Source of the DNA: Methanolobus psychrophilus R15
Lineage (GTDB): Archaea; Halobacteriota; Methanosarcinia; Methanosarcinales; Methanosarcinaceae
Direction: 5' to 3'
Assembly (NCBI GenBank): GCA_000306725.1
Contig: CP003083.1
Span: 124,001-188,000, forward strand
DNA length: 64,000 bases
The notes under the pieces are model-generated. The model was not told where the DNA came from. It was given only the letters and a program-made list of their open reading frames with translations, and did no database searches. Positions 21,270 through 39,611 of this stretch are shown here, piece after piece; positions within the stretch are counted from its first letter, which is position 1, and every line of letters starts with the position of its first letter. Made by a program: the position numbers and the translations under genes.

Positions 21270-21362
21270 GTTAAAACCTTCATTTGTTTTGATGTTTCAA
21301 ATCGAATCTAAACAAATATCATATTGTTTTTATACATGTTATATTAACTTTTATTGATAAAT

Positions 21363-22130
21363 ATGACATCTACAATTGAACCATACGCCATCTATAAAAA
21401 GCTGATAGATGTTGCAAAGAAACACAGTACGATATATTACAGTGATATCTTAAAATCATACAAGATAGAGACATTTCCTCATACTGTGAAAAATAAACTG
21501 ACGAACCCGATTCTAAATCCTTTAATCCAGTATAATATTGAAAAAGATCAACCTGTTCTCTCATCTCTAGTCATCAACAAAAAACAAAATCTCCCTGGAA
21601 AAGGTTTCTTTGATACAATGGAATCAATGTTTAATCTGGAACTATCAAATGTCACGGATAAAAGAACAGTACATGCTGAAGAACTGGAGTTGATCTGGAG
21701 TTTTGAGTGGGACAGTAGTGAATGGGATCCAAACAAGTGGGATGAGATAGTAAGCAGAAACTCAAAACCTCAACTTCATAATTTATCAATTTACTTTGAA
21801 GATCTAAGGGATTACTTGATAGATATAGCAAAAGCCCAACAAACCATTACATATAAGCAAGTCTTGAACAATTTCAGGCTGCAGTTGAACCCAGGTAATG
21901 TAGGATTTCTTGTAAGAGAAGGACTTGATCCAATGATCATCTATAATATGGAGCATAATGAACCTATCTTATCTTCTCTGGTAGTTAGAAAAGAAAGCGG
22001 AATGCCTGGACCTGGTTTTTTCCGAAAAATGCAATTACTAGGCACTTATGATGGTTCAATTCAAGGTAAAGATGCAATCAACTATCACAGAATAGAACTA
22101 GAAAAACTTTGGAGTTACTATTCACAGTAA
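21363..22130 (+). CDS. Tandem-domain protein with LSSLVV-PGxGFF motif
   Basis: A 255-aa protein made of two copies of a domain of about 110 residues. Each copy has a helix like YKKLIDVAKKHSTIYYSDIL, then PVLSSLVINKKQNLPGKGFF (copy 1) or PILSSLVVRKESGMPGPGFF (copy 2) and a closing helix with W. The motif recurs in small proteins near restriction genes, but I cannot name a family. The ATG at 21363 follows a TATA-like TTTTTATACA near 21328. It runs in the same direction as the DUF7662-like gene that follows. Confidence 0.6.
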   Translation: MTSTIEPYAIYKKLIDVAKKHSTIYYSDILKSYKIETFPHTVKNKLTNPILNPLIQYNIEKDQPVLSSLVINKKQNLPGKGFFDTMESMFNLELSNVTDKRTVHAEELELIWSFEWDSSEWDPNKWDEIVSRNSKPQLHNLSIYFEDLRDYLIDIAKAQQTITYKQVLNNFRLQLNPGNVGFLVREGLDPMIIYNMEHNEPILSSLVVRKESGMPGPGFFRKMQLLGTYDGSIQGKDAINYHRIELEKLWSYYSQ

Positions 22131-22901: not shown

Positions 22902-23483
22902 ATGAAACTCGAAGAGAGACTCGAACTTCTAAAAGAAGAACTGCAAAAAGAAGATTTCTTAAAATCAAGGGGTCTTGGCAATGAAGTTCCCTTCTGGATC
23001 TTTGATTATCCTCCTGAGAAAGAACTTCTTGTAAGAGATACTATCACAAAAATCACAGCGAACCTGGAAAAGAGATCGATCCCGGTGCTTGAAATCAATC
23101 TTTATGATGTATGTCTTGAAATAATAGAAGCTAAAATATCTGCTGAGAAGATAACTGCATTTGAGGAGAGCAAAGGCTCTGATGAACTGCTTAAGAAATT
23201 AAAGTTAATGCTGAAGCCTGATATTTTGAAAAGTGCCATCCAGCAGAAAATGAATGAGAATGGTGGTTTTCAGCTGATATTTCTGACCGGCGTGGGTAAG
23301 GCCTGGCCGATGGTTCGGTCTCATACTATTCTTAATAACGTACAGCCTCTTCTTGGTAATATACCGCTTGTTACATTCTATCCCGGCAAGTACAGTGGTT
23401 TTGATCTTAGTCTATTCGGAAAATTCAGGGATGCAAATTATTATCGTGCTTTCAGGCTCATAAACACGGACAGGGTTTCTTAA
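22902..23483 (+). CDS. brxB: BREX protein BrxB (DUF1788)
   Basis: A 193-aa protein, normal BrxB length. WIFDYPPEKELLVRD near the N-terminus and LTGVGKAWPMVRSHTILN with the closing YPGKYSGFDLSLFGK are DUF1788 features. BrxB is a core component of type 1 BREX, needed for phage exclusion; its biochemical role is unsettled. It is the first recognisable BREX gene here. The usual preceding brxA (DUF1819) is not found upstream. brxC follows after 20 bases. Confidence 0.93.
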   Translation: MKLEERLELLKEELQKEDFLKSRGLGNEVPFWIFDYPPEKELLVRDTITKITANLEKRSIPVLEINLYDVCLEIIEAKISAEKITAFEESKGSDELLKKLKLMLKPDILKSAIQQKMNENGGFQLIFLTGVGKAWPMVRSHTILNNVQPLLGNIPLVTFYPGKYSGFDLSLFGKFRDANYYRAFRLINTDRVS

Positions 23484-23503
23484 AGTTAAGGGTTGTTGGA
23501 AAA

Positions 23504-26500
23504 ATGACGAGTGCTATAAAAATTCAAGATCTCTTCCAAAAAGACATCAAGAGAGAGATAAATGGTGTTATCAAGGTCGATCAGGAAGACGATGAGAATG
23601 TATACACTGAACTTGATGAATACGTGGTTACAAAAGAATCACTGAAGCATCTGGACCTTTTCTTTGAGAGATACTTCAATGCTCTGGAAAACCCTACGGA
23701 TAAAGTGGGTGTATGGGTATCCGGATTCTTTGGTTCGGGTAAATCCCATTTTATCAAGATGTTATCCTATCTTCTGGAAAACCGCGTTGTACGGGGCAAG
23801 TCGGCCCTTGAGTTCTTCAGGGAAAAGATAGATGATGCGCAGTTATTCTCTTCGATCGAAAAAGCTGTGATTCATGGTACAAAGGACGTTATCCTTTTCA
23901 ACATCGACTCAAAGGCAAACACCCTTAACCGGAGCGATGAGCTCATTGTGAATATCCTGATGAGGGTATTCAATGAAAAAAGAGGTTTTTTCGGGGATGT
24001 CCTGTGGCTTGCTGAGATGGAAGAGGATCTGGTTAACAAAGGTCTTTATGGTGAGTTCAAAGAGGAGTTCAGGCAGATAAGCGGTGCCCCATGGGAGGAG
24101 AAGCGGGATGCCTATATCTTTGAACAGGATGAGATCATCGAGGCACTTGTAAATTGTGATTACCAAAGCAGGGAATCTCTTGAAAGGCTGTTCCATAGCG
24201 ACGGAAGCAGCTCTCATTTCAGCGTGGAGAAATTCGCTGAAAAGGTAAAGAGATACTGTGATTCAAAGGGTAAGGACCACCAGGTTATTTTCCTTATTGA
24301 CGAGATCGGGCAGTATATTGGTGAAAATAGTGAATTGATGCTTAACCTGCAGACGGTTGTGGAGGCTCTTGGGACAAAGCTTACAGGAAAAGCCTGGATC
24401 GTTGTCACATCCCAGGCGGATATTGATTCCATTACCAAGGATGCTAAGGGCTATGATTTCTCCAAGATCCAGGGACGTTTTGATACCCGTCTGAGCCTTT
24501 CCAGTGCCAATGTTGATGAAGTGATCAAGAAGAGGATACTGGCAAAAAAAGCAGTTTACGTGGAGACATTGACATCATATTACACTGATAAGAAGACAAT
24601 AATGAAGAACATCCTCACTTTCTCGCCCGGCGGGGCTGAGATGAAGCTGTACAAGGGAGATGAGGACTTTGTCAATGTATATCCTTTTGTGCCTTACCAC
24701 TTCTTTGTGCTGCAGAAGGTTTTCGATAAGATAAGGCAGACCGGTTTTACAGGCAAGCACCTTGCAAAAGGAGAAAGGTCCATGCTTAACGCTTTCAAGG
24801 AGGCATCCGAGGAGTATGCTGAGGAAGAGCTTGGGGTGCTGGTGCCTTTTTCCACATTCTATAACACTATAGAGAGCTTCCTTGATCCCATCATTAAGCG
24901 CACTATTGAACAGGCGAAGGGCAATGATTGTCTTGTGGATGGGGATTGCGAGATACTCAAGATACTTTTCATGATAAGGCATGTGAATGTGTTGCAGCCG
25001 AGCCTGGATAACCTTGTGGTGCTTTCCATATCCCATGTCGATGAGGATAAAAGGAAACTGAAGGAGAGGATATCTGCATCCCTACAGCGTCTGGAGGCCC
25101 AGACACTTATTCACAAGTCAGGGGACAGGTATTATTTCCTGACCAATGAGGAACAGGAGATCAACCGGGAGATCAAGAACATCGATGTTGAGAAGCATAA
25201 GATCCTTGATGAGATGTTCGCGTATGTCTTTGATGAGGTATGTCCTGCCAAGCATAAGGATTACAAATTCCACAAATCCATTGATGATAAGGTCAAGTCT
25301 ACGGCAGGTGCAGACCTGACCATCAAGTTCCTGACGCCTTTGTCGGATGACGTGCAGCGGGGAAGTGGACAGAGGTCACTGAGCGGGGAAAACTTAAGCA
25401 ATGTGGACTCAACTGATACTCTTCTTTTTGTATTCCAGCATGATGCTGTTTTTGTGAACCAGATACGGGATTACATCAGGATCAGCAAGTACTTGCTTCA
25501 GAATACTTCCAATATGAATATCGGAGAGGTCAAGGACATCCTCAGCAGCAAGAGAAACGATGAGGTAAAGCTTCGGGAAGCTGCTAAGAAGTCCATGGAG
25601 GAAGGGATTTCAGAGGCACGGATATTTGTTGACGGGAAGGAAGTCACAAGTATTGAGAAGAAGAACCCCAAGGAAAGGATAAAAGACGGACTAGACCTGC
25701 TCTTTCAGAACGTGTACAAGAAGGCAGGTTATGTGACAAGGGAGTTTACCAGCGATAATGAGATACTGAGAATACTCCAGGCAGATGACCTTGAAAAGTT
25801 CGGTGCAGGGGAATCAGAAGAAAACCAGCTTGCCCTGCGGGAAATGCTGGACTATTTGAACGTAAGGCATCAGAAGAATGATGTTGTTGTGCTGCAGGAT
25901 ATCAAGGAGAGGTTCAGGCGCAAGCCCTATGGCTGGAATGAGGTGACCATTTCCGGTCTTGTAGCTACGCTGTTTGCGAGGGATGAGATCAAAGTCAGGT
26001 ACCAGAAGACATATCTCATTCTCAAGAGACCGACCGCGGAGGAGATCGTGAGATATCTCACGAGGAAGGATTTTGCAGATAAGGTCGTGCTTGAGATCCG
26101 GGAGAAGGCGAACGTTGAGGTCATCAGGACTGTAAAATCGGTCCTGCGGGATGTGTTCGAGAAGACTAATATCCCTGAGAAGGAGAATGAGCTTTTCGAA
26201 CTCACATACTCGCTGTTCAAAGCGGAATACACAAATCTTGAGCAGATAGAAGGCAGATACAAAGAAGAGCCAAGGTTCCCCGGTAAAGAGAAGATACGGG
26301 CATATGCTGATTTCCTGAACAATGTCCTTAACGTGACAGACCCTTCATCATTCCTGCAAGCAATAGCTGATGGGAAGGATGAGTTTGTCCGGGCACGCGC
26401 AGAGGTTGAGCCGGTACTATCGTTCTTTGGAAGCACTAAGGTGGATATATTCAGAAGGGTCCTAAAGAAGATGGATAACTTCAAGCGGGACCTGCAGTTC

Positions 26501-27061
26501 ATGGATGAAGATACAAAGTTCAAAGTGCAGGAAGTTAAAGCCATTCTGGATTCAAAGGAACCTTATTCAGATATCAAATCATTACCACCACTCGAAGCAA
26601 GCATTGAAAGTTCCCTTTCTACTGCTCTTGCCAACTTAAAGGAAGCAGCATTTACAGAAATAGGATCAATCAAAATTGAATTACAAAAATACATGGCTTC
26701 TTATGTGGAGTTAGATTCGGATTATAGATATTTGATGCTAAAGCCCTTTGATCAGTTGAAGGAAACTATTGCACAAGCTAGTGACTGTGTATTCGTGCAA
26801 GCACAGTCCACTACATTGAAGTTTCTCGATGAAACTACTTATGGGGAAATAAAGAACCAACTCCAAACAATTAGGGAGAAAACAGAGGGTAAGGATAAGG
26901 ACAAGATAACTCCTGTAAGATCGACTAGAGTCATTAGAGACGTGTCACTATTCAAAACTAAAGATACGATCAAATCTAAAGAGGAACTGGACAAGTACCT
27001 CGAGGATTTGAAAACAGCTTTGTTAGAAATGCTCAAGACAGATAATTTCAAGGTGCAGTGA
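23504..27061 (+). CDS. brxC: BREX P-loop protein BrxC
   Basis: A 1185-aa protein. Walker A is WVSGFFGSGKSHFIKML near residue 70 and Walker B IFLIDEIGQYIGENSELM near 265, followed by an arginine-containing sensor region (KIQGRFDTRLSLSS). The long C-terminal part is helical. This is a large AAA+ ATPase of the BREX core, required for defence and modification. Codon use is GC-richer than most of the island until about 26560, after which the last 160 codons are AT-richer, which may mark a recombination join. It overlaps the region of the pglX start. Confidence 0.94.
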   Translation: MTSAIKIQDLFQKDIKREINGVIKVDQEDDENVYTELDEYVVTKESLKHLDLFFERYFNALENPTDKVGVWVSGFFGSGKSHFIKMLSYLLENRVVRGKSALEFFREKIDDAQLFSSIEKAVIHGTKDVILFNIDSKANTLNRSDELIVNILMRVFNEKRGFFGDVLWLAEMEEDLVNKGLYGEFKEEFRQISGAPWEEKRDAYIFEQDEIIEALVNCDYQSRESLERLFHSDGSSSHFSVEKFAEKVKRYCDSKGKDHQVIFLIDEIGQYIGENSELMLNLQTVVEALGTKLTGKAWIVVTSQADIDSITKDAKGYDFSKIQGRFDTRLSLSSANVDEVIKKRILAKKAVYVETLTSYYTDKKTIMKNILTFSPGGAEMKLYKGDEDFVNVYPFVPYHFFVLQKVFDKIRQTGFTGKHLAKGERSMLNAFKEASEEYAEEELGVLVPFSTFYNTIESFLDPIIKRTIEQAKGNDCLVDGDCEILKILFMIRHVNVLQPSLDNLVVLSISHVDEDKRKLKERISASLQRLEAQTLIHKSGDRYYFLTNEEQEINREIKNIDVEKHKILDEMFAYVFDEVCPAKHKDYKFHKSIDDKVKSTAGADLTIKFLTPLSDDVQRGSGQRSLSGENLSNVDSTDTLLFVFQHDAVFVNQIRDYIRISKYLLQNTSNMNIGEVKDILSSKRNDEVKLREAAKKSMEEGISEARIFVDGKEVTSIEKKNPKERIKDGLDLLFQNVYKKAGYVTREFTSDNEILRILQADDLEKFGAGESEENQLALREMLDYLNVRHQKNDVVVLQDIKERFRRKPYGWNEVTISGLVATLFARDEIKVRYQKTYLILKRPTAEEIVRYLTRKDFADKVVLEIREKANVEVIRTVKSVLRDVFEKTNIPEKENELFELTYSLFKAEYTNLEQIEGRYKEEPRFPGKEKIRAYADFLNNVLNVTDPSSFLQAIADGKDEFVRARAEVEPVLSFFGSTKVDIFRRVLKKMDNFKRDLQFMDEDTKFKVQEVKAILDSKEPYSDIKSLPPLEASIESSLSTALANLKEAAFTEIGSIKIELQKYMASYVELDSDYRYLMLKPFDQLKETIAQASDCVFVQAQSTTLKFLDETTYGEIKNQLQTIREKTEGKDKDKITPVRSTRVIRDVSLFKTKDTIKSKEELDKYLEDLKTALLEMLKTDNFKVQ

Positions 27062-27063
27062 TT

Positions 27064-28923
27064 ATGGATAAGGCACGCATCATTAAGTTCTCGGATACTG
27101 TGCGGGATAAGCTCCACCAGGAAGTAAGGGAGCGGGCGGCATTCTATGGCATAGAGCCTAAAGAGATCCTTCCTGTGGATTCCGAGCACACGGATTCGAT
27201 GGTAATCGGGGGCAAGGTCTTCAATAAGAAGATCAAGGCCCAGAGGGAGCAGCTTGTGAAAGAGGTCAGACGCAAGGGCTATGAGCAGGTGATGGATGAG
27301 GTCACTTATACCTGGTTCAATCGGTTTGTTGCGCTGAAGTTCATGGAGGTCAACGATTATATTCCGGTGAAGGTGTTCACTTCGGATGATTCTGAGAGGA
27401 CCGAGCCGGGAATTATTACACATGCTCTTGAACTGGATCTCCTGGAGCTTGATTTGGAACTTGTGCTTGATCTGAAGGCTGAGAACGAGGATGAGGAGCT
27501 GTACAAGTACCTGATATTGCGGTTGTGTAACTACCTGAACCGCACAATGTCTTTCCTGTTCGAGGAGATCGCAGACTATACTGAGCTTCTGTTCCCTGAA
27601 AAATTGTTGCATATCGGTTCCATTGTAAAGGATATGAACGGGATCATTGCCGAGGACGACTGGAGAGAAGTGGAGGTCATCGGCTGGATATACCAGGACT
27701 ACATCGCTCCGAAAAAGGATAAGGTGTTCAAGGACCTGCAGAAGAATGTGAAGATAAGCAAGGAGAATATCCCTGCAGCGACCCAGTTGTTCACACCGCA
27801 CTGGATCGTCCGCTACCTGGTGGAGAATTCCCTGGGGCGATTGTGGATGCTCAACCGTCCCGGCTCGCGGCTGGCAGAGAAGATGGACTACTATATCCGA
27901 CCGGAGCAGGCTGAGAAGGATTACCTGAAGGTGAGTTCGCCGGAGGATATCAGGGTGTGCGACCCTGCCTGTGGCTCGGGACACATGCTGGTCTATGCCT
28001 TTGACCTGCTGTATGCCATCTACGAGGAGGAGGGCTACGACCATTCCGAGATCCCTGAGATGATACTGACACACAACCTCTTCGGGGTCGAGATAGACAA
28101 GCGCGCCGGAGAGCTGGCAGCCTTTGCGCTGGTTATGAAAGCGCGTAGAAAGAACCGCAATTTCTTCCGCAAGCCTGTCCAGCCCAATATTTGCGTGCTG
28201 GAGAACGTTTCATTTGAGGAAGGAGAGCTTAATGCCTATATCACAGCCGTTGGCCGGGAACTGTTCACCAATGAGGTCAGGGCCACGCTGCTTCAGTTCA
28301 ATGAGGCTGACAATTTCGGTTCCCTCATCCGTCCGAAAGCTGCGGATGTTTCGACTATCCTGAAAATGCCGAAACCAAAGGTTCTTTCTGAAAATCTCAC
28401 TCTTCTTTCCACTCACCAGAAGGTACTGCAGGCCCTGAAGCAGGCAGATCACCTCAGCCCTAAATATCATGTAGTGGTTGCCAACCCGCCGTATATGGGT
28501 GGCAAGGGGATGAATGACAGACTTAAGAGCTTTGCACAGGACAATTATCCTGAGAGCAAGTCGGATTTCTTTGCGATGTTCATTGACCGCAATCTTGACC
28601 TTGCAATGAAGAAAGGAATGGTGGCTATGATCACCATGCAGAGCTGGATGTTCCTTTCTTCCTATGAGAAACTCCGGGCAAGCATTCTGGACGACCGTAC
28701 CATAATATCCATGGCGCATCTTGGGCCGAGGGCCTTTGACAGTATCGGCGGTGAGGTTGTCTCTACCACGGCCTTTGTTATCGAGAATACACAGCATCCG
28801 GAGTATAAGGGAGCTTATATCCGGCTTGTAGATGGCAACTGCGAAGCCGAAAAAGATGCATGGCTGCGCGAAGCAGTGATGCAGGCCAGAAATGTTGCTA
28901 TTCATCGAATGGAGGCACAATGA
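27064..28923 (+). CDS. pglX: PglX, N-terminal methyltransferase half (split gene)
   Basis: A 619-aa product covering the N-terminal half of BREX adenine methyltransferase PglX. SAM motif I is VCDPACGSGHMLVYAFDLLY and catalytic motif IV is VVANPPYMGG (NPPY, N6-adenine type). The protein ends after the methyltransferase core, at a point where complete PglX proteins run on into the specificity region. That remainder is encoded at 30847-32553, after two inserted genes. The stop overlaps the next start (ATGA at 28920). A GTG at 27058 is an alternative start. Confidence 0.93.
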   Translation: MDKARIIKFSDTVRDKLHQEVRERAAFYGIEPKEILPVDSEHTDSMVIGGKVFNKKIKAQREQLVKEVRRKGYEQVMDEVTYTWFNRFVALKFMEVNDYIPVKVFTSDDSERTEPGIITHALELDLLELDLELVLDLKAENEDEELYKYLILRLCNYLNRTMSFLFEEIADYTELLFPEKLLHIGSIVKDMNGIIAEDDWREVEVIGWIYQDYIAPKKDKVFKDLQKNVKISKENIPAATQLFTPHWIVRYLVENSLGRLWMLNRPGSRLAEKMDYYIRPEQAEKDYLKVSSPEDIRVCDPACGSGHMLVYAFDLLYAIYEEEGYDHSEIPEMILTHNLFGVEIDKRAGELAAFALVMKARRKNRNFFRKPVQPNICVLENVSFEEGELNAYITAVGRELFTNEVRATLLQFNEADNFGSLIRPKAADVSTILKMPKPKVLSENLTLLSTHQKVLQALKQADHLSPKYHVVVANPPYMGGKGMNDRLKSFAQDNYPESKSDFFAMFIDRNLDLAMKKGMVAMITMQSWMFLSSYEKLRASILDDRTIISMAHLGPRAFDSIGGEVVSTTAFVIENTQHPEYKGAYIRLVDGNCEAEKDAWLREAVMQARNVAIHRMEAQ

Positions 28924-30392
28924 GTACGCCAGCCTCTCAACTCATTACCATTCCAGAGGGCAAGACGCTGGAGTTCAAGCGTGATATCTCCTCGCCAAAG
29001 AACATCATCAAGACGCTTGTGGCATTTGCAAACACTGCCGGAGGGCGTTTGCTGATAGGGGTGGAGGATGGAACAAAGGAGATAATAGGTGTTTCAGATC
29101 CACTTGATGAAGAAGAGAGGCTTTGCAGTCTTATTGCTGATAATATTGCTCCCCGACTTGTTCCAGATGTTGAGCTGATGACGGTGGAGGGTAAGACCTT
29201 GCTGGGCGTTGAAGTATATCCCAGTGGTTCACGTCCGCATTGGGTCAAGAGTGAAGGCCATTTTGATGGTGTTTATGTAAGGCTTGGTTCCACTAACAGG
29301 AAGGCTGACAGGGAGCTTATTGCCGAGCTTCAGAGAAGTGCTTTAGGTATTTCTTTTGATGAGATGGCTATGCCTGATCTCTCTTTTGAAAATCTTGATA
29401 TTGACGCTGCTAAAAAGCGCTTTGCAGGAGTACGTGAGCTGAACGAAGAGGAATTGATCACTCTTAAGCTCTTGGCCCGGGAGCAGGGCAGACTGGTTCC
29501 GACCACTGGCGCGATGCTGCTTTTCGGAAAACAGAGGGATTTTCATTTCCCTGATGCATGGATTCAGTGCGGACGCTTCAAAGGAAAGGATAAGGCATAC
29601 ATTTTCGACCATAACGAGATTAATGAAGACCTTCCAGGTTCTGTTGAATCAGTGATGCTGTTTTTGAAGAAACATGCTTTCAAAGGTGCCGATTTCTCAG
29701 AGATTCGGCGTAAGGACATGTGGAGCATTCCCCTTACTATCCTACGTGAGGCTCTTGTGAATGCCATCGTCCATGCGGACTATTCCCAGAGAGGTGCACC
29801 TATCAGGGTGTCCTTCTTTGATGACAGGATAGAGATAGAGAACCCCGGTATCCTACTTCCAGGCATGACCATCGAGGATGTCAAGCAGGGTGTCTCAAGG
29901 ATCAGGAATCGCGTTATTGCCAGGGTCTTCAGGGAACTTGACCTGATCGAGCAATGGGGTAGTGGTTTCCGCCGTATCCTGAAGGATGCTGAAGAACTCG
30001 GACTTCTCCAGCCGGAACTAATTGAAATCGGCATGAGAGTAAGGTTCATTGTCTACCTGGCGGAATCCATAGAGGTTGAAACTGCCACTCCTGTCACGGC
30101 TGAAGTTGAGCCGCGGCTAAAGTCACGGCTAAAGTCACGGCTAAAGTCTGAACTTGCGGCTAAAGTAATTGTGCTTCTGGCCAATGGTGAAGAAAGTAAA
30201 GCCGAACTTGCTTCCGGACTGAGCCACAAGACCGTATCCGGTGAACTCCACAAACAGATCAGGAACCTCCTGGAACTCGATTACATCGAAATGACCATCC
30301 CCGACAAACCCCGCAGCAGCAAGCAGAAATACAACCTGACACCCAAAGGCCGTGCACTCTTAACTCAAGAAAACAAGGAGGAGAATGAATGA
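28920..30392 (+). CDS. AlbA_2/Schlafen-type ATP-binding protein inside pglX
   Basis: A 490-aa protein. The N-terminal AlbA_2 (Schlafen-like) domain shows EGKTLEFKRDIS, VAFANTAGGRLLIGVEDG. The centre has a GHKL-type ATP-binding fold (REALVNAIVHADYSQRG, IEIENPG, QWGSGFRRI). A linker of triplicated LKSR units precedes a winged-helix tail. The family is frequent between subunits of type I restriction and BREX loci; its role is probably regulatory or sensory (inference). ATGA overlaps on both sides couple it to the pglX half before it and the linker ORF after it. Confidence 0.88.
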   Translation: MSTPASQLITIPEGKTLEFKRDISSPKNIIKTLVAFANTAGGRLLIGVEDGTKEIIGVSDPLDEEERLCSLIADNIAPRLVPDVELMTVEGKTLLGVEVYPSGSRPHWVKSEGHFDGVYVRLGSTNRKADRELIAELQRSALGISFDEMAMPDLSFENLDIDAAKKRFAGVRELNEEELITLKLLAREQGRLVPTTGAMLLFGKQRDFHFPDAWIQCGRFKGKDKAYIFDHNEINEDLPGSVESVMLFLKKHAFKGADFSEIRRKDMWSIPLTILREALVNAIVHADYSQRGAPIRVSFFDDRIEIENPGILLPGMTIEDVKQGVSRIRNRVIARVFRELDLIEQWGSGFRRILKDAEELGLLQPELIEIGMRVRFIVYLAESIEVETATPVTAEVEPRLKSRLKSRLKSELAAKVIVLLANGEESKAELASGLSHKTVSGELHKQIRNLLELDYIEMTIPDKPRSSKQKYNLTPKGRALLTQENKEENE

Positions 30393-30844
30393 CATCCCGG
30401 CACCATGTTAGTGAACTTGATGCCATAAATGGCACTAAGTCACGGCCCAAGCTGCGGCCCAAGTCGGGACCACGTTGGGACCATGTAGGGAATAAATCAG
30501 GACCAAGTAAGGACCAAGTAATATCCAAATCACCGACCCAGTTATCGACCCAGTCGCCGACCCAGTTGCATAAGATTTCTTCTCCACTGAATGTTATCAA
30601 ATCTGTCACCAAACAAGTAAGCGAACAAGTAGGCGAACAAGTAGGCGAACAAGTAACCGCTACAAACCACAGAGTACACAGAGATATTGCAGATGAAAAC
30701 TCAAATCTGCAAATTCACCACAAGCCATGTGACGAATTGACTACTCAACAGACGATTGATACAATTCGTTACCCAATGAGTAGCGAATTAAAAACTGTTT
30801 TTAATCCTCAGCCGGGTCACATTATAGGCTATAATAGAGGTTAA
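30389..30844 (+). CDS. Low-complexity ORF of linker-type repeats
   Basis: A 151-aa frame with no globular domain. It strings together several repeat types known from hinges of AlbA_2 ATPases: [40 protein letters not shown] and [15 protein letters not shown]. It starts by ATGA overlap with the ATPase gene and ends two bases before the second pglX half. It may be a translated tail of the ATPase after frameshift, or a store of linker modules. Expression is likely from the coupling, but function is unknown. Confidence 0.5.
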
Positions 30845-30846
30845 TT

Positions 30847-32553
30847 ATGACAACTGATACTAATTCATCAACCACTCCTGTCCCCAGCTTCTACCGCGCC
30901 TCTGCGGCCGATTTCAAGAAAATTCCAGGAAGTCCGATTGCATATTGGGTGAGTGAAAACATAAGGGACGCATTTTCAACCGCTACACCACTTTCTAACT
31001 TAAATGTCCCTCGACAAGGTTTTGCAACAGGTGATAATGATACTTATTTAAGACAGTGGTCAGAAGTTCAAATCTCTAATATTGGATTTAATTGTAAAGA
31101 CAACGAAGATTCTGTCACAAGTGGTTGTCGATGGTTTCCTTGCAATAAAGGTGGAACTTTTAGGAAATGGTTCGGTAATAACAACATTGTCGCTGATTGG
31201 GAGAACAATGGAGAACGAATGAAAAAGTTCAAAGGATCTGTAATTCGTAATCCAAATTACTATTTTAAAGAAGGAATGACTTGGTCTACAATCAGTAGTT
31301 CTAAACTTTCGATGAGATATTCATCAAAGGGTTTTTTATTTGAAACTAAAGGTTCTGTCTGTTTTCCTCTTGATGATGATTCTTTTAAATATTGTTTAGG
31401 CTTTATGAATTGTAAAGTTGTTGAAGAACTTCTGTTAGCAATTTCACCAACGTTAGATTTTCATGAAGGTCCTATTGGAAAAACTCCATTAATAATTTCT
31501 CAAGAAGATCAGATTTCAAATACAGTATCAATTTTAATAAAAAATGCTAAATCTGACTGGGATTCCTACGAAAACTCTTGGGATTTCACCACTCTCCCAT
31601 TCCTCCAACCCGAATACCACCATCCAACCCTCCGCAAAACCTACATCAAACTTCGCGCCCAGTGGAAAGAAATGACACTTGAGATGCAACGGCTAGAGGA
31701 AGAGAACAACCGTGTTTTCATCGAAGCCTACGGCTTGCAGGATGAACTTACACCTGATGTGCCACTTTCAGAGATTACACTGACATGCAATCCACATTAT
31801 CGCTATAATGGAAACAGAAGCGAAGAAGAACTGGAAGCATTGCTGCTCACAGATACAATAAAAGAATTCATCTCCTATGCTGTGGGCTGCATGTTCGGGC
31901 GGTATTCGCTGGACAAGCCGGGGCTGATGCTTGCGAACCAAGGTGAGAAGATAGGAGATTATCTGGAGCAGGTGCCGGAGCCGAGCTTCATGCCGGATGT
32001 GGATAACATCATACCCATGCTTGAGGATGAGTACTTTGAGGATGACATCGTAGGCAGGTTCAAGGAGTTCCTCAAGCTGACCTTTGGAGAGGATAAGCTT
32101 TCCGACAATCTGGATTTCATTGCGGAGGCTCTGGGCGGTAACGGGAAGAAGTCTTCGGAGGTTGTGATAAGGGACTATTTCCTGAAGTCGTTTTACAAGG
32201 ACCATCTGAGGATGTACAAGAAGAGACCCATCTACTGGCTGTTCAGCTCAGGTAAGGGCAGAGCTTTCAATGCACTCGTTTACATGCACAGGTACAATAA
32301 GGAAACGCTGGCGATGATGAGGACAGATTATTTGCTGGAGCTTGAGGGGAAGCTGGATGCTAAGAGGGAGATGATCAAGTCGGATATTGGGAAGGATGCT
32401 CAGGAGAAGGCGCGGCTGGGGAAGATGATTGAAGAGCTCATGGCTTATGATGAAGTACTGAAGAATAAGGCCGATGCGTACATTGAGATTAATCTGGATG
32501 ATGGGGTTGTGGTGAATTACGGGAAGTTTGAAGGGTTGGTGGAGAAGATATGA
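30847..32553 (+). CDS. pglX: PglX, C-terminal specificity half
   Basis: A 568-aa product beginning with residues found in the middle of intact PglX ([20 protein letters not shown]), then a target-recognition region, then the conserved C-terminus ([51 protein letters not shown]). Together with 27064-28923 it makes about 1190 residues, the length of whole PglX. Both halves are in the same phase. Bases 30930-31590, the recognition region, are clearly more AT-rich than the rest, as if exchanged. It probably assembles with the N-terminal half like HsdM with HsdS (inference). Confidence 0.9.
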
Positions 32554-32707
32554 CCATCAAAATTGCAAACTTTCAAATGAAACTATATAATATTATAATA
32601 TACAGTGATAGATGATAGTAATCGTCTTTAGTAGAACTCAAATCTTTAAATGATTATGAATTGAATTTGATCTCAAACAATAGTTAATTTTTATCAAGGT
32701 GTATATT

Positions 32708-33145
32708 ATGGATTCAATTATAGGTGTTGTCTATCCTCTTCATAAAGATGTAATTGACTATATGTTCTCAAACAAAAAGGATGTTTTTGTAAAGTATACT
32801 TCACGCCAACCTCAAAAAAAATCAAGTATCAAGATTAAAGAAGGGATGAAATTATACTTTTATGAGTCAGGTGGGAGTAAATCTATAATCGGTGAAACCA
32901 CTATCCTAAAATACGATTATTTAGACATGCAGTCTGTATTAGATAAATATCTTGAGAGGTTAATTGTTTCAGAAGAAGATTTCAGGACATATGCTAAAGG
33001 CAGAGAACAGAAGAAAGCTTTGGTTTTAGAGTTTGGTTCTTTAAAGAAGTATAAAGAGCCAGTGAAATTGTTAAAACCTATCACAATGGCTGGACTTCAT
33101 TTAACTGAAGAGAGAAAAAAAGAACTTTTTGCTCAAGACTATTGA
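32708..33145 (+). CDS. DUF365 (PUA/ASCH-like) protein
   Basis: A 145-aa protein matching the archaeal DUF365 layout: an opening SIIGVVYPLHKDVIDYMF, then KDVFVKYTSR, KEGMKLYFYESGG and IIGETTILKYD. The fold is PUA/ASCH-like, which suggests binding of modified nucleic acid or a nucleotide. It lies inside the BREX operon between pglX and dgt and is AT-rich, unlike the brx genes. The ATG at 32708 is preferred to 32699 by alignment of the opening strand. Its role in defence is inference. Confidence 0.7.
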   Translation: MDSIIGVVYPLHKDVIDYMFSNKKDVFVKYTSRQPQKKSSIKIKEGMKLYFYESGGSKSIIGETTILKYDYLDMQSVLDKYLERLIVSEEDFRTYAKGREQKKALVLEFGSLKKYKEPVKLLKPITMAGLHLTEERKKELFAQDY

Positions 33146-33260
33146 TAAGAAAATACAACCCGACAAATCAAGATGATGTGCTATAATATGATTTGTGGGA
33201 GTGCTTTTTTAAATTAGTATTAAAGTGATGAAATTGCTAGTATTGGGTTGTGAGAAGGAT

Positions 33261-34898
33261 ATGAAACACAAATTAAAGCAAGAATTTCAACCATCTGATA
33301 GATTAAACCAGGAGGTTGAAAAAAAGTTACCTCTATCTTGTAAGATACTGGAAGATATTGAAAGAAGCGAGTTTGCAAAAGATAGGGATCGTATTCTGTT
33401 TTCACGACCATTTAGGCGTTTACAGCATAAAGCACAGGTATTCTCCAATGAAACAGGAGACCATTATAGAACAAGACTGACTCATACTTTAGAAGTTTCT
33501 CAGATAGCACGGAGTTTAGCAAGATATTTGGGTGCAAATGAGGACCTTGTTGAAGCAATAGCTCTTGGGCATGATATTGGTCATACTCCGTTTGGGCATC
33601 AGGGGGAAAGAGTATTAGATCAAGTTATGAGTGGTGAGGATAAACTTGGTCTGATCAAGTATCCTTTGAATTTTGGTGGGTTCAAACACAATTTCAATGG
33701 TTTGCGTGTGTTGGATGTCGTTCAATCTAAATTTGAGGATTATGAAGGATTAAATCTCTCATGGCAGGTCTTAGAGGGAATTCTGAAACATACAAAGATA
33801 AAAAAGCACAAAAATTGTGAAGAGTACGGAAATTGCTGGGATATAAGGCGATTTGTCAGTGACCAGTCTTTGATAGAAAGGTTATACGTGAAGTATGAGT
33901 TTTCAGTTACGCTTGAAGGTCAAATTGTAGCAATAGCTGATGAAATTGCTCAAAGACAACATGACATTGACGATGGTCTAAGAAATAAAGCGTTAGGGAT
34001 TCAATTAGGCAAATTATACGATGAAGTAATAGGTATTATCGAAAAAATCGTTTCTAACAAAGCACTATATACAAATATAGAAAAAGAACATTTAGATGAC
34101 TTAATAGAACTTTTAATCCGGCTTCATCAAAGTTTACTCGAAAATAAAGAAGCAACCCAACTACTTAAAACAGATAGCTTAGTACGAAATATTATTGAAT
34201 ACCTCATTCTTGATGTTTTTGCCAATTCTCGCGTGAAAATCCAAGGAAATCTAAAACTAACTCCAGATGGAGAAAGGAAAATATTACAAAGCCAAGTTGT
34301 CTGTTTCTCTCTAGTTGGTAGAGATTTAAACAAAGAACTTGAAAAACTTGTCAAATACCGGATTATAAATTCATATGAAGTCAATAAATTTGATGGCAAA
34401 TCTCGCTTTATTGTGAGACAGCTTTTTAAGGCATTCTATACAAATCCACGTCAGATGCCTTCTTATGTGTTAGGAAGGCTTGCAACAAATTTAAACCAGA
34501 ATTGGGATTTCTATTATCCTATAAAGCTCACACATAATGGAGAAACTATAGCATTAAACAATATTAATTTCAACAAAATGAATCGTACTGAAGTAGAAAT
34601 GTTGATTGAATCATTAAAGTTAGAAAACTTAGATACTATATCAAAAGTTCCTCTCAAAATGAGAATTTTAATGCAAGAATCAACGAATGAACGAGAAATA
34701 AGCGAAGCCTTTTATGAAGAGCTAAAGTCAATTAATTCTCTTAAAATAGATGAGCTTAATACTAGCAGCACAGATAGACTATTAAAGTGCCTCTTAGAAA
34801 ACCATTATGCATACCTTTCTACAATTTGCGATTATATTTCAGGAATGTCAGATAACTACGCAAACACTGAATACCGAAAATTGTATCTGGTTGACTGA
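33261..34898 (+). CDS. dgt: HD-domain dGTPase (deoxyguanosine triphosphate triphosphohydrolase)
   Basis: A 545-aa protein. RPFRRLQHKAQVF, THTLEVSQIARSLARYLG and GHDIGHTPFGHQGE give the metal-binding H...HD set, completed by the Asp in AIADEIAQRQHD. dGTPases remove dNTPs, and members of this family act in bacterial phage defence by starving replication. It lies inside the BREX operon, 27 bases before pglZ, and is markedly AT-rich, so it was probably added later. The start is uncertain: 33261 (MKHKLKQ) or 33225/33228 upstream. Confidence 0.88.
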   Translation: MKHKLKQEFQPSDRLNQEVEKKLPLSCKILEDIERSEFAKDRDRILFSRPFRRLQHKAQVFSNETGDHYRTRLTHTLEVSQIARSLARYLGANEDLVEAIALGHDIGHTPFGHQGERVLDQVMSGEDKLGLIKYPLNFGGFKHNFNGLRVLDVVQSKFEDYEGLNLSWQVLEGILKHTKIKKHKNCEEYGNCWDIRRFVSDQSLIERLYVKYEFSVTLEGQIVAIADEIAQRQHDIDDGLRNKALGIQLGKLYDEVIGIIEKIVSNKALYTNIEKEHLDDLIELLIRLHQSLLENKEATQLLKTDSLVRNIIEYLILDVFANSRVKIQGNLKLTPDGERKILQSQVVCFSLVGRDLNKELEKLVKYRIINSYEVNKFDGKSRFIVRQLFKAFYTNPRQMPSYVLGRLATNLNQNWDFYYPIKLTHNGETIALNNINFNKMNRTEVEMLIESLKLENLDTISKVPLKMRILMQESTNEREISEAFYEELKSINSLKIDELNTSSTDRLLKCLLENHYAYLSTICDYISGMSDNYANTEYRKLYLVD

Positions 34899-34924
34899 AA
34901 TGCATCTTTGAAAAAGGAATAATC

Positions 34925-37546
34925 ATGTTAAACCCAGAAAAAACCACTCAGAGCATACTTAAGAAATTCGAAATCCTCAGTGACTTCGAGAAGAGGAAGA
35001 TCGTCTTCTGGTATGATAAGGACGGGACCGCGGATGAGGAGGGGCTTGCACAGATAGGGGAAGCTCTGGTGGAGAGGGGAATTAAGTTGCATGTATTGAA
35101 GAATAACTTCTTTGCAACGAAGAAAATGCTGGAGAATGATGATACGAAGTCCAGCTATCTGATCTATTCCGATCAGGCAGAAAGGGACCCGGAATCGAAC
35201 TGGCTGCTGGACATTCAGCTGTATTCGGCGAGGTTTGAGAACAGCAGGATATCGGACATCAAGAGCGAGTTCGGGATAGAAGGGTATGACCTTGACAGGT
35301 TCCTGGAAAAGCACCAGCAGTTCTTTGCGAGCAAGAGGAGGGTCGTGCCGCTTAAGAAGATATACCAGAGCGACTGGAGGGACGAGGAGTTCACACTCGG
35401 GTTCTTGGGAGTGCTGTCCGGCTCGGCTACCACGGATCTCAAGGAGATCATCCGGAAGATACTCATCAGCTCGCTGGATGAGAACTCCAATACCCTATGG
35501 GAGGACATTGTCAGGTTCGAGCTGGCCGAAGAGTTATGGGGGCTTGTGAACAGGTACTTTGGCTACCGGTCGGAGGAGCCTACTTTAAAGAAGCTCTTCC
35601 TGAGCTTTGTGATCACGCACATCTCGAGGAACACGGACATCAACCTCAAGAAGTACAAGGCTTACAGCAATTCCCTCAGCAATGAATGTGAGATATTCAT
35701 CAAAGGCTGGATGGACAACTCCAGGGATTCGGGAGTCTTTGACGAGTATTGCAGGCAACTGCTTGAAGATAACAGCAGTCAGCTTGAAAAATATCTCAAT
35801 GCAGAGATCCCGAAGTACGATGTCCCGAAGTATCTCGAAGCGGAATCCCTCGCTTTGTTCGATGAGCATGTCATCCGCAGGATAGTCGATGAGCTCGACA
35901 ATGGCAAAGAGGACTTTGAAGGCTATCTTGAATGGATAGCCAGCAGGAAGACAAAACACTGGTATCCCGGCTTTGAGAATATCTACAGTGCCCTGGAATA
36001 TGCCGTAAAGTTACACCAGTTCGCAAAAGAGTTCAGCGCAGAGGACCTCAGCAGCCAGAACCTGAACCACTTCTTCAGGAATTATGCGGAACGCTACTAC
36101 CTGATGGACTATTACTACCGCAAGTTCTACTATCATTACGACAAAGATAACCAGAAAGAGGACCTCAAAACCACAAGAGAGGCCATAGAAAAGCTCTACA
36201 ATAACAGGCTCCTCGACAAACTGCTCACAAGATGGAGCGAGCTCATATCCAAAGAGATGGACGGGCACTGGAATATCGAGCTCATCGACCGCCAGGACGA
36301 GTTCTACAAGCTCTATATAAGGAACATCATCAACCGTAATGACAAGGACAAGATAGCAGTCGTCATTTCCGATGCCATGCGCTACGAAGTAGCCGCAGAG
36401 CTACAGGAGATCCTAAATAAGGACACCAGGGGCACGGTCGAGCTAAAGTGCATGACCGGCTCTCTACCATCATATACCAAGCTGGGCATGGCCAGCCTGC
36501 TCCCGCATGAGAGGCTGGAGTACAGGAACCAGAGTGTATTTGCAGATGGCATCAGTACCGAAGGAATCGAGAACCGGGGCAAGATACTGGAGAGGATGAC
36601 ACCCGATTCCATTGCTCTGGGCTATGAAGACCTCATGAACCTGAAAAGAGATGAAGCTCGTGAAAGGTTCAAGGGCATAAGGCTTTTCTATATCTATCAT
36701 GACATGATCGATGCCACGGGCGATCACTCAGCATCAGAACACGGAGTCTTTAATGCAGCTGAAGAGACAATTTCCGATGTCAAGAAAATCATCGAGAAAC
36801 TCACCAACGCCCAGATAATCAATAACCTAATTGTCACGGCAGACCATGGTTTCATTTATCAGAGAGATAATCTCGAGAGCGTTGATAAAGTTGAAACTAA
36901 TGGCTTTGACAAGGAAAAAGTAATAGCTTCAAGCAAGCGCTTCATCCTCAGTGAAGAGAACATCGATCTGATGAACGTCCATAAGTTCAACATGGATTAT
37001 GTTGTCAAATCTGATAGCAAAAAGGAAATGTTCGCATATGTCCCTCAGGCAGACCTCAGGTTCAGGATGCAGGGTGCCAATAAGAATTTCGTGCATGGCG
37101 GAGCTGCTCCTCAGGAAATAGTAGTCCCTGTGCTTAAATACTCATACAACACCACAGCAGACCTTGACAGAAAAGGCATTAAGCACGGTAAAGTAGGGGT
37201 AATAATCACCAACCCCAGCCGCAAGATAACAAGCAGCCCGTTCTATATAAACATCCTGCAGACAGAGAAAGTGACTGATAAGCTGCTCCCGAGAAGGTTC
37301 AGGGTCGCCTTATGGGACAGGGATGGTGATGAGTACAAAGTGAGCGATGAAAAGCTTGTCATTGCCGAAGGCTCATCAGATGAAGCCTCTGATAGGCAAT
37401 ACAAAGTTACTCTCACACTGACCGGTAATATCGAGAACAAGATATACTATGCAAGACTTATAGATGAAGACCCGACAGAAATCAACAGGGACATAATCGA
37501 TCCCATGCCCTTTGAAGTTGACCTATTGATAGTCGATGATTTCTAA
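34925..37546 (+). CDS. pglZ: BREX protein PglZ
   Basis: An 873-aa protein of the alkaline-phosphatase-like PglZ family, type 1 size. The phosphatase-like core is visible at VVISDAMRYEVAAELQEIL, TGSLPSYTKLGMASLLPH and IVTADHGFIYQR, with a conserved HGGAAPQEIVVPVL. The N-terminal part (WYDKDGTADEEGLAQIGEAL) is the PglZ-N region. It is essential to BREX; some members show metal-dependent phosphodiesterase activity. GC content returns to the level of brxC. brxL follows after 25 bases. Confidence 0.95.
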   Translation: MLNPEKTTQSILKKFEILSDFEKRKIVFWYDKDGTADEEGLAQIGEALVERGIKLHVLKNNFFATKKMLENDDTKSSYLIYSDQAERDPESNWLLDIQLYSARFENSRISDIKSEFGIEGYDLDRFLEKHQQFFASKRRVVPLKKIYQSDWRDEEFTLGFLGVLSGSATTDLKEIIRKILISSLDENSNTLWEDIVRFELAEELWGLVNRYFGYRSEEPTLKKLFLSFVITHISRNTDINLKKYKAYSNSLSNECEIFIKGWMDNSRDSGVFDEYCRQLLEDNSSQLEKYLNAEIPKYDVPKYLEAESLALFDEHVIRRIVDELDNGKEDFEGYLEWIASRKTKHWYPGFENIYSALEYAVKLHQFAKEFSAEDLSSQNLNHFFRNYAERYYLMDYYYRKFYYHYDKDNQKEDLKTTREAIEKLYNNRLLDKLLTRWSELISKEMDGHWNIELIDRQDEFYKLYIRNIINRNDKDKIAVVISDAMRYEVAAELQEILNKDTRGTVELKCMTGSLPSYTKLGMASLLPHERLEYRNQSVFADGISTEGIENRGKILERMTPDSIALGYEDLMNLKRDEARERFKGIRLFYIYHDMIDATGDHSASEHGVFNAAEETISDVKKIIEKLTNAQIINNLIVTADHGFIYQRDNLESVDKVETNGFDKEKVIASSKRFILSEENIDLMNVHKFNMDYVVKSDSKKEMFAYVPQADLRFRMQGANKNFVHGGAAPQEIVVPVLKYSYNTTADLDRKGIKHGKVGVIITNPSRKITSSPFYINILQTEKVTDKLLPRRFRVALWDRDGDEYKVSDEKLVIAEGSSDEASDRQYKVTLTLTGNIENKIYYARLIDEDPTEINRDIIDPMPFEVDLLIVDDF

Positions 37547-37571
37547 ACAACATCACATGTGAGCGGATATC

Positions 37572-39611
37572 ATGCTGACCAATGACACAGACATCGGAAC
37601 TGACGAAAAACTGAATCTATACTTTCCTGGAAGAGTGGTCAGGAAGGACCTGACAAAGCAGATCAAGGTAGGCCACAACGTCCCTGTCTATGTCCTTGAA
37701 TACCTGCTGGGAGCTAACTGCGCCACCACTGATGAGGAGCTGATACAGCAGGGTGTCAAGAAGGTCAAAGGCATCCTCTCAGACAACTATGTCCGCCCGG
37801 ATGAAGCAGAGAAGATCAAATCAAAGATAAGGGAAACAGGCTACTACACAATCATCGACAAGGTCTCTGTGAAACTGAACGAAAAAAGAGACATCTATGA
37901 AGCTCTCTTCTCCAACCTCGGCCTGTCGGCTGTACAGGTAGACCCTGAGTATGTCACACGATACGATAAACTTCTTGGTGGAGGTATCTGGTGCATAATA
38001 AAGATGGAGTACAACGCCGAAATGGTGCCATCCCCTTTTATCATATCAAGCCTGAAGCCCATACAGATCCCTAACATCAACATCTCTGAGGTAATAGAGC
38101 AGCGCAAGAACTTCACCAAGGATGAATGGATAGATGTCCTCCTAAGATCCGTAGGCATGGAACCAACACAACTGGAAATGCCTGCCAAATGGCATCTCTT
38201 GGAACGCATGGTGCCTCTCGTGGAGAATAATTACAACCTCTGTGAACTTGGCCCCCGCAGCACGGGAAAATCCCATATCTACAAGGAAATATCCCCCAAC
38301 TCCATACTTATATCCGGAGGACAGACAACAGTTGCAAACCTCTTCTACAATCTGGGTACACGTCAGGTAGGTCTTGTGGGTCTCTGGGACGTTGTAGCCT
38401 TTGACGAGGTAGCAGGCATCCGTTTCAAGGACAAGGATGGCATCCAGATCTTAAAAGACTACATGGCATCCGGCTCCTTTGCAAGAGGCAAGGACCAAAT
38501 CAACGCCAATGCCTCCATCGCCTTCGTTGGTAACGTTAACCAGAGCATATCATCGTTACTTAAGACATCCCATCTCTTCTCTCCATTCCCTGAGGCAATG
38601 AACAATGACAGCGCATTCTTTGACAGGATGCATTACTACTTGCCAGGATGGGAAGTTCCTAAATTCCGACCGGAGCATTTCACAGACAGATATGGTTTCA
38701 TCGTTGACTATCTGGCAGAGTTCCTGAGGGAGATGAGAAAACGCTCCTACAGCGATTTGATCTTCAGGTATTTCAGCTTGGGTAACAACCTGAATCAGAG
38801 AGATGTTATCGCAGTCAAAAAAACCGTTTCAGGACTTGCAAAGATCATCCACCCAGATGAGGATATATCAAAACAAGATGCGCAGGAGATACTGGAATAT
38901 GCCCTCGTGGGAAGGCGAAGGGTCAAAGAGCAACTGAAAAAGATCGGGGGCATGGAGTTCTTTGATGTGAATTTCTCCTACATCGACAACGAAGATATGG
39001 AAGAGCACTTTGTCAACGTCCCTGAAAGCGGGGGGAACAAGATAATACCACCTGGTCTTACAAAGCCCGGACAGGTCTATGCAGTTGCTGCAACAGAGTC
39101 CGGAAAGATAGGCATTTACAAGACAGAGCTCCAGGTAGTATCAGGTTCAGGCAAATATGAAGCATCCGGTCTCAATTCGAATGCAAAAGCAAAGGAATCC
39201 GTAAAAACAGCGATCAACTATTTCAAAGCCAACGCCAAGTCCATAAGCCAATCGATCTCCACTAAAGAAAGAGATTATTTCATGAATCTGCAGGATGTCT
39301 ATGGAGTCGGGGCCTCTGATGGCCTGTCACTGGCTGCTTTCATCAGTCTCTGTTCAGGAGCGCTGGAAAGACCAATACAGGAACAGACAGCTATTATCGG
39401 GACTATGACCATAGGCGGCTCCATCTTGAATATAGACAACCTCTCAGATCTTCTGCAAGTCTCCCTAGATGCCGGGGCCAGGAAGGTATTGATTCCTGCA
39501 TCCGCTACATCAAAATTGGGTACTGTGCCAGCTGATTTGTTGAGCAAGTTCCAGCTTGCATTTTATGCTGATCCGGTTGATGCGGTGCATAAGGCGCTGT
39601 TCTTTGGATGA
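37572..39611 (+). CDS. brxL: BREX Lon-like protein BrxL
   Basis: A 679-aa protein. The central AAA+ module has a Walker A-like GPRSTGKSHIYKEI and Walker B GLWDVVAFDEVAGI. The C-terminal domain resembles Lon protease (GASDGLSLAAFISLCSG with the presumed Ser, then TMTIGGSILNI and DAGARKVLIPASA with the Lys). BrxL multimers bind DNA and, in studied systems, are needed for defence but not for methylation. Its presence, with PglZ and BrxB/BrxC, marks this as type 1 BREX. It is the last gene of the operon, with T-rich sequence after the stop. Confidence 0.94.
   Translation: MLTNDTDIGTDEKLNLYFPGRVVRKDLTKQIKVGHNVPVYVLEYLLGANCATTDEELIQQGVKKVKGILSDNYVRPDEAEKIKSKIRETGYYTIIDKVSVKLNEKRDIYEALFSNLGLSAVQVDPEYVTRYDKLLGGGIWCIIKMEYNAEMVPSPFIISSLKPIQIPNINISEVIEQRKNFTKDEWIDVLLRSVGMEPTQLEMPAKWHLLERMVPLVENNYNLCELGPRSTGKSHIYKEISPNSILISGGQTTVANLFYNLGTRQVGLVGLWDVVAFDEVAGIRFKDKDGIQILKDYMASGSFARGKDQINANASIAFVGNVNQSISSLLKTSHLFSPFPEAMNNDSAFFDRMHYYLPGWEVPKFRPEHFTDRYGFIVDYLAEFLREMRKRSYSDLIFRYFSLGNNLNQRDVIAVKKTVSGLAKIIHPDEDISKQDAQEILEYALVGRRRVKEQLKKIGGMEFFDVNFSYIDNEDMEEHFVNVPESGGNKIIPPGLTKPGQVYAVAATESGKIGIYKTELQVVSGSGKYEASGLNSNAKAKESVKTAINYFKANAKSISQSISTKERDYFMNLQDVYGVGASDGLSLAAFISLCSGALERPIQEQTAIIGTMTIGGSILNIDNLSDLLQVSLDAGARKVLIPASATSKLGTVPADLLSKFQLAFYADPVDAVHKALFFG

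Follow-up and report, generated by a model that had tools for sequence, protein, structure and literature searches.

The pglX gene of the BREX operon in Methanolobus psychrophilus R15 is divided into two open reading frames, one for the methyltransferase half and one for the specificity half of the enzyme, with a Schlafen-type gene lodged between them; a single-chain PglX of about 1200 aa is absent from the locus. The same cut recurs in other archaea and in bacteria, both halves are complete and under strong purifying selection, and defence genes are found in the gap in nearly all cases. As read from the sequence, the split is real and conserved, and its recurrence suggests an enzyme that works in two parts and not a damaged gene. 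We consider it likely that the locus encodes a type I-like BREX system in which PglX is made of two subunits, having been split by a defence cassette, and in which the slot between the halves swaps its cargo. PglX is needed for both BREX methylation and BREX defence; PglX methyltransferases are characterised by non-palindromic 6-mA methylation that depends on further BREX proteins.

The operon was analyzed in a window of 64,000 nucleotides (positions 124,001 to 188,000 of contig CP003083.1) from a genome of 3.07 Mb that consists of a single contig. It comprises brxB, brxC, the two pglX pieces, pglZ and brxL and extends from 22902 to 39611 of the window, with all genes on the forward strand. 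Upstream of the divided gene lie brxB (22902–23483; PADLOC BrxB, E 7.9e-69) and brxC (23504–27061; PADLOC BrxC, E 0). Downstream of it lie pglZ (34925–37546) and brxL (37572–39611), each identified by PADLOC and by Pfam. A search for brxA with the DUF1819 profile (PF08849) gave no match in this genome or in five other archaeal genomes with split or fused pglX, where a diverged form is possible; the same search found BrxA in 5/5 bacterial genomes. A 258-aa open reading frame upstream of brxB (21354–22130) was considered as BrxA, and profile searches with PADLOC, Pfam and NCBIfam gave no match. This gene is also kept in another split archaeal locus (L027) and could be a diverged BrxA.

The methyltransferase half, pglX-N (27064–28923, 619 aa), matches Pfam Eco57I/N6_Mtase and positions 2–651 of the 1210 of the NCBIfam model BREX_1_MTaseX. 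It contains a helical bundle and an N6-adenine methyltransferase with motif I DPACGSGH and motif IV NPPY, it is collinear with residues 6–639 of the solved Salmonella PglX (8c45), and its relatives begin at the residue encoded by the ATG at 27064. The specificity half, pglX-C (30847–32553, 568 aa), matches the PADLOC PglX models and is collinear with 8c45 residues 644–1211, reaching nearly to the end of that protein. Its hypervariable target-recognition domain (pglX-C residues 38–236; 30958–31554) was delimited by identity to relatives and by a structural match. The two halves match consecutive parts of the PADLOC and NCBIfam PglX models, and in PADLOC the N-half and the C-half are already covered by models of their own, PDLC02525 (607 positions) and PDLC02516 (593 positions). 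Since the family models name each half PglX, annotation may report a divided system as a pair of pglX genes or just a fragment of one.

Several features of this arrangement had been proposed in a first-pass annotation made from the sequence alone. Its statement that the two parts add up to a normal length is correct, as the sum of 619 and 568, 1187 aa, is the length of a fused PglX (about 1150–1200 aa in most complete examples). The parts also meet, as proposed, at the boundary between catalytic core and target-recognition region, the 8c45 alignment running to residue 639 in the N-half and resuming at 644 in the C-half. The intervening gene (28920–30392), described as an AlbA ATPase, was confirmed by Pfam as a Schlafen AlbA_2 + HATPase_c_4 + Fic-like_C/wHTH protein. 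The two pglX parts do share a phase, but this carries no weight as evidence because the spacing differs between relatives. All four frames had been described as coupled by ATGA overlaps. Such overlaps are present at 28920–28923 (pglX-N/Schlafen) and 30389–30392 (Schlafen/spacer), but the third junction reads TAA (30842–30844), TT, ATG (30847) with no overlap, and a GAGGT ribosome-binding-like sequence precedes pglX-C; hence overlaps do not couple all four frames. The "linker ORF" counted in that series (30389–30844) is probably non-coding, with a dN/dS of 0.62–0.76.

The cut in pglX (window 28923/30847) maps to about residues 640–643 of Salmonella PglX. In that protein, the hinge between the two jaws is formed by residues 654–659 (PMC11341690), and the jaw boundary of E. 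coli BrxX lies between 1–660 and 661–1205 (PMC11842806). The cut thus sits just N-terminal of the hinge between methyltransferase jaw and target-recognition jaw. Across split loci, the N-halves end within a stretch of about 20 residues (605–625 of the window's pglX-N; the N-half of L117 aligns less well than the others in this comparison), and nearly all C-halves start about 10–30 aa ahead of the recognition domain. By these alignments, the same cut position in independent lineages is more than chance.

The first-pass annotation had advised a search of archaeal BREX loci for the same split, and it was found in 16 other archaeal genomes, making 17 with our own. Among 100 related genomes searched, ten carry pglX-C as a separate frame of about 550–590 aa, nine of which were read with the N-half alongside; a wider draw from the phylum added four split genomes from other families, and two more came from the contig collection. 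In other archaeal relatives, pglX is a fused gene of about 1140–1190 aa. The slot of most split archaeal loci is occupied by a Schlafen gene, homologues of ours being found there in most relatives. It holds a DUF4062-HATPase gene in L029, a YhcG-type PD-(D/E)XK nuclease, a Fic-like_C protein and a small PDC-S05-family protein in L150, and nothing in L027. In the relative G072, a DUF365 gene separates the two pglX pieces at a point about 20–30 residues upstream of the usual cut, and the original sequence is still visible on the C side. The split of G072 is a further one, separate from the others.

Separate N- and C-halves on one contig were also observed in at least 17 bacterial loci, found in Pseudomonas genomes and among the 80 top-ranking contigs of the genome collection (80 bacterial and archaeal loci were picked by similarity). 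They belong to Pseudomonas, Halopseudomonas, Rugamonas, Acidovorax, Zoogloea, Pseudohongiella, Halomonas, an unassigned gammaproteobacterium, Hydrogenedentota, Pontiellaceae, Marinamargulisbacteria and Methylacidiphilum. A further genome, G1169 (L189), has separate pieces too, with poorly resolved genes, and was left out of the count. The genes between the bacterial halves include Shedu SduA, SIR2 + HerA, HEC-02 (Abi-like) ATPase pairs, a UG5-nitrilase reverse transcriptase, Schlafen, Fic and a helicase. In two bacterial loci, L085 and L188, no gene separates the split halves. In L188, an apparent leftover start codon overlaps the stop of the N-half at the place where the near relative L069 carries cargo, so that cargo can probably be lost with the halves staying apart; the three cargo-free split loci (L027, L085 and L188) indicate that two chains persist without it. 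A short C frame was seen in about half of 13 Pseudomonas matches. Even draws of Gammaproteobacteria and Burkholderiales yielded few new BREX matches and no new canonical split among them, so the split looks uncommon outside archaea and Pseudomonas. The annotated plasmid matches examined had a fused pglX in two cases out of three and a truncated one in the third. Judged by these loci, the split is not confined to archaea, and the feature most often found with it is the presence of defence genes in the gap.

A tree of 97 N-halves requires eight changes between split and fused states, at least five of which are forced by well-supported branches; gains and losses are not distinguished in this count. 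On the N-half tree, where it is readable, the archaeal split sequences, 14 in number, fall into a single supported group. The C-terminal tree gave the same number of changes, and there the archaeal split sequences are not one group. A single origin of the split, with all split sequences in one clade, was rejected by the AU test on a reduced N-half set.

Is the divided gene simply dead? Inactivation, in which insertion of the Schlafen gene destroyed pglX and left a BREX without methylation, is a reading to which we give hardly any credence. The lack of a recognised BrxA in the archaeal locus would agree with it, as would the broken pglX genes of some relatives (G058, G285 and G505), but the frames of these truly broken copies are interrupted at other places than the split. 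Measured against relatives, dN/dS is 0.07–0.10 for pglX-N and about 0.07–0.08 for pglX-C residues 237–568, and neither internal stops in the pglX halves of split relatives nor relaxed selection were detected. Motif I DPACGSGH and NPPY are kept in 28/28 split N-halves tested, the summed lengths of the two halves in split loci are 1161–1258 aa, and start, length and motifs are conserved over many species; pglZ, brxC and brxL are intact. The first-pass annotation had regarded intact pglX in related strains, together with missing methylation here, as the mark of simple inactivation. Some relatives do have an intact pglX, but simple inactivation is contradicted by the selection data. Its view that the split is no random disruption is supported: relatives keep the architecture, purifying selection acts on both halves, and the cut is placed as in HsdM/HsdS. 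That likeness to HsdM/HsdS is structurally sound: the cut parts the methyltransferase from the recognition half and the recognition domain matches Type I S subunits. The annotation went further and proposed that the split serves an exchangeable specificity, a stand-alone S-like subunit being swapped or shared as in Type I restriction-modification. Besides the resemblance to HsdS, the hypervariable recognition domain with its conserved flanks and the disagreement in detail between N- and C-half trees speak for this idea. Our own recognition domain is only 30–44% identical to those of relatives whose C-terminal flank is 66–92% identical, and mean identities in the Methanosarcinales split group are 32% for the recognition domain, 83% for the N part and 88% for the C-terminus. 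Fused PglX, however, is equally hypervariable, with mean identities of 29–39% in the recognition domain, 73–92% in the N part and 75–81% in the C-terminus (recognition domains of split PglX, 32–38%), and N and C trees conflict significantly for fused Methanosarcinaceae PglX, less strongly for split PglX. Moreover, our genome has one C-half and split relatives give one full-length match per genome. Such a purpose of the split is not specifically supported by these data, and we regard it as unlikely. Taken together, the identities and trees indicate that exchange of recognition domains does occur, but that the split is not its cause.

A third alternative is that the halves and the cargo work as one physical complex or as a guard circuit in which, for example, the effector fires upon an imbalance of the halves or their inhibition by Ocr or another anti-BREX protein. 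In favour of this, the cargo is a defence effector in nearly all cases and often has a 4-base overlap with the adjoining half. Against this, the cargo is very diverse, it is absent in L027, L085 and L188, and in L030 and L033 it is found elsewhere in the operon, by a fused or otherwise placed pglX; we find this proposal rather improbable. The two-subunit enzyme with a cargo slot, which we prefer, would most likely have arisen through entry of a defence-gene cassette into the operon where the two jaws meet. pglX would then have become two translated cistrons, in many cases joined by 4-base overlaps, with both retained by selection. The methyltransferase subunit would consist of the helical bundle and the SAM/NPPY core, and the specificity subunit of the recognition domain, a helical spacer and the C-terminal region. 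As the cut falls at a tolerated site by the jaw hinge, the two chains should dock like the jaws of the fused enzyme, and the assembled pair would be expected to methylate DNA. The slot would subsequently take up and swap accessory defence genes, in our case a Schlafen RNase-like effector presumably made together with the methyltransferase. With low confidence, we further suggest that the junction of the PglX halves could be a recurrent loading site for defence genes. The outcome would be a BREX class with a two-subunit methyltransferase, in which production of the nested effector would keep pace with the assembly state of the enzyme and perhaps be under its control.

Modelled alone, pglX-C gave a mean pLDDT of 82, with residues 1–33 of low confidence. 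Comparison of the model with the PglX structure gave Z 30.7 and an rmsd of 7.9 over 496 residues, this rmsd being due to a different relative placement of the domains. The recognition domain of the model matches CamA, MmeI, TaqI and Type I S subunits by structure comparison. In Salmonella, expression of the PglX C-terminal domain alone was not achieved (PMC11341690).

Both halves are collinear with Type I BREX PglX/BrxX (NF033452; 8c45, 8q56, 9ewz and 8zek) along the whole length, and they share its catalytic motifs and its partners brxB, brxC, pglZ and brxL. In every solved structure found, PglX is one chain of about 1200 aa, whereas here there are two, with genes between them. Separate M and S chains, as in the two cistrons described here, are the rule of Type I restriction-modification HsdM/HsdS, and the recognition domain matches the S domains of EcoKI, EcoR124I, PacII and M. 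genitalium with Z 8–10. These matches cover only about residues 28–245 of pglX-C, which is otherwise collinear with the PglX C-terminus; unlike HsdS, it has a PglX sequence and apparently one recognition domain. No HsdR match was found among the genes from 22902 to 39611, where BREX genes stand instead. The two-part PglX probably arose from a fused PglX. According to Rakesh and Krishnan (2026; PMC12839542), BREX is adjoined in over 1000 taxa by Schlafen RNases that carry a wHTH and a histidine-kinase-like domain, and Shedu, OLD and PD-(D/E)XK proteins are also BREX auxiliary effectors. The sections of that paper on BrxX and effectors put the effectors beside core loci or within them rather than in the gap of a divided pglX, and the word "split" is absent from its main text. 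Duplication and phase variation of pglX are another route to varied BREX specificity (PMC11842806), which differs from a stable two-cistron gene. We found no description of a split PglX in the literature searched, although an earlier mention in the founding 2015 BREX paper is possible. The natural halves offer a route to study the PglX jaws as subunits and to mix methyltransferase and specificity halves between strains, and they raise the question why defence genes repeatedly settle at the pglX cut.

The spacer between the Schlafen gene and pglX-C (30389–30844, 456 bases, no strand assigned) is open as a 151-aa frame that gave no family match in PADLOC, Pfam or NCBIfam profile searches. Its dN/dS of 0.62–0.76, together with this result and a dS of 0.19–0.47, which is below that of its neighbours, led us to reject it as a protein; it is probably not a gene. 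Its DNA is 82% identical in four relatives. Along the locus, this conserved stretch has variable sequence on either side, namely the 3' end of the Schlafen gene and the recognition domain. The linker of the Schlafen proteins between HATPase and wHTH contains four repeat types (RPKSRPK, GPSWDQVGTK, SPTQ and TEQV), each tied to its own wHTH type (L022–L028, L043, L149 and L152). Comparison of the spacer with these linkers gave 30 short matches, against 0–1 in codon shuffles, and degenerate copies of all four repeat types are found in it. Their presence suggests repeated replacement of the Schlafen 3' end, and the spacer may be a recombination scar or a homology anchor.

Two accessory genes lie between pglX-C and pglZ. 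One encodes a DUF365 protein (32699–33145; Pfam DUF365) whose homologue is found between the pglX pieces of G072 (L017), and the other a dGTP triphosphohydrolase-like HD protein (33225–34898; TIGR01353, over the curated cut-off). Together (32699–34898) they make up a second accessory slot. A HEC-05-type gene occurs repeatedly between pglX-C and pglZ in the split Pseudomonadaceae loci L069, L095, L185 and L186. Extra pglX 3' fragments were detected near accessory genes in four loci (L029:1785–2189, L035:4127–4387, L037:5308–6123 and L039:10751–11293), as if cargo had entered by duplicating the end of pglX.
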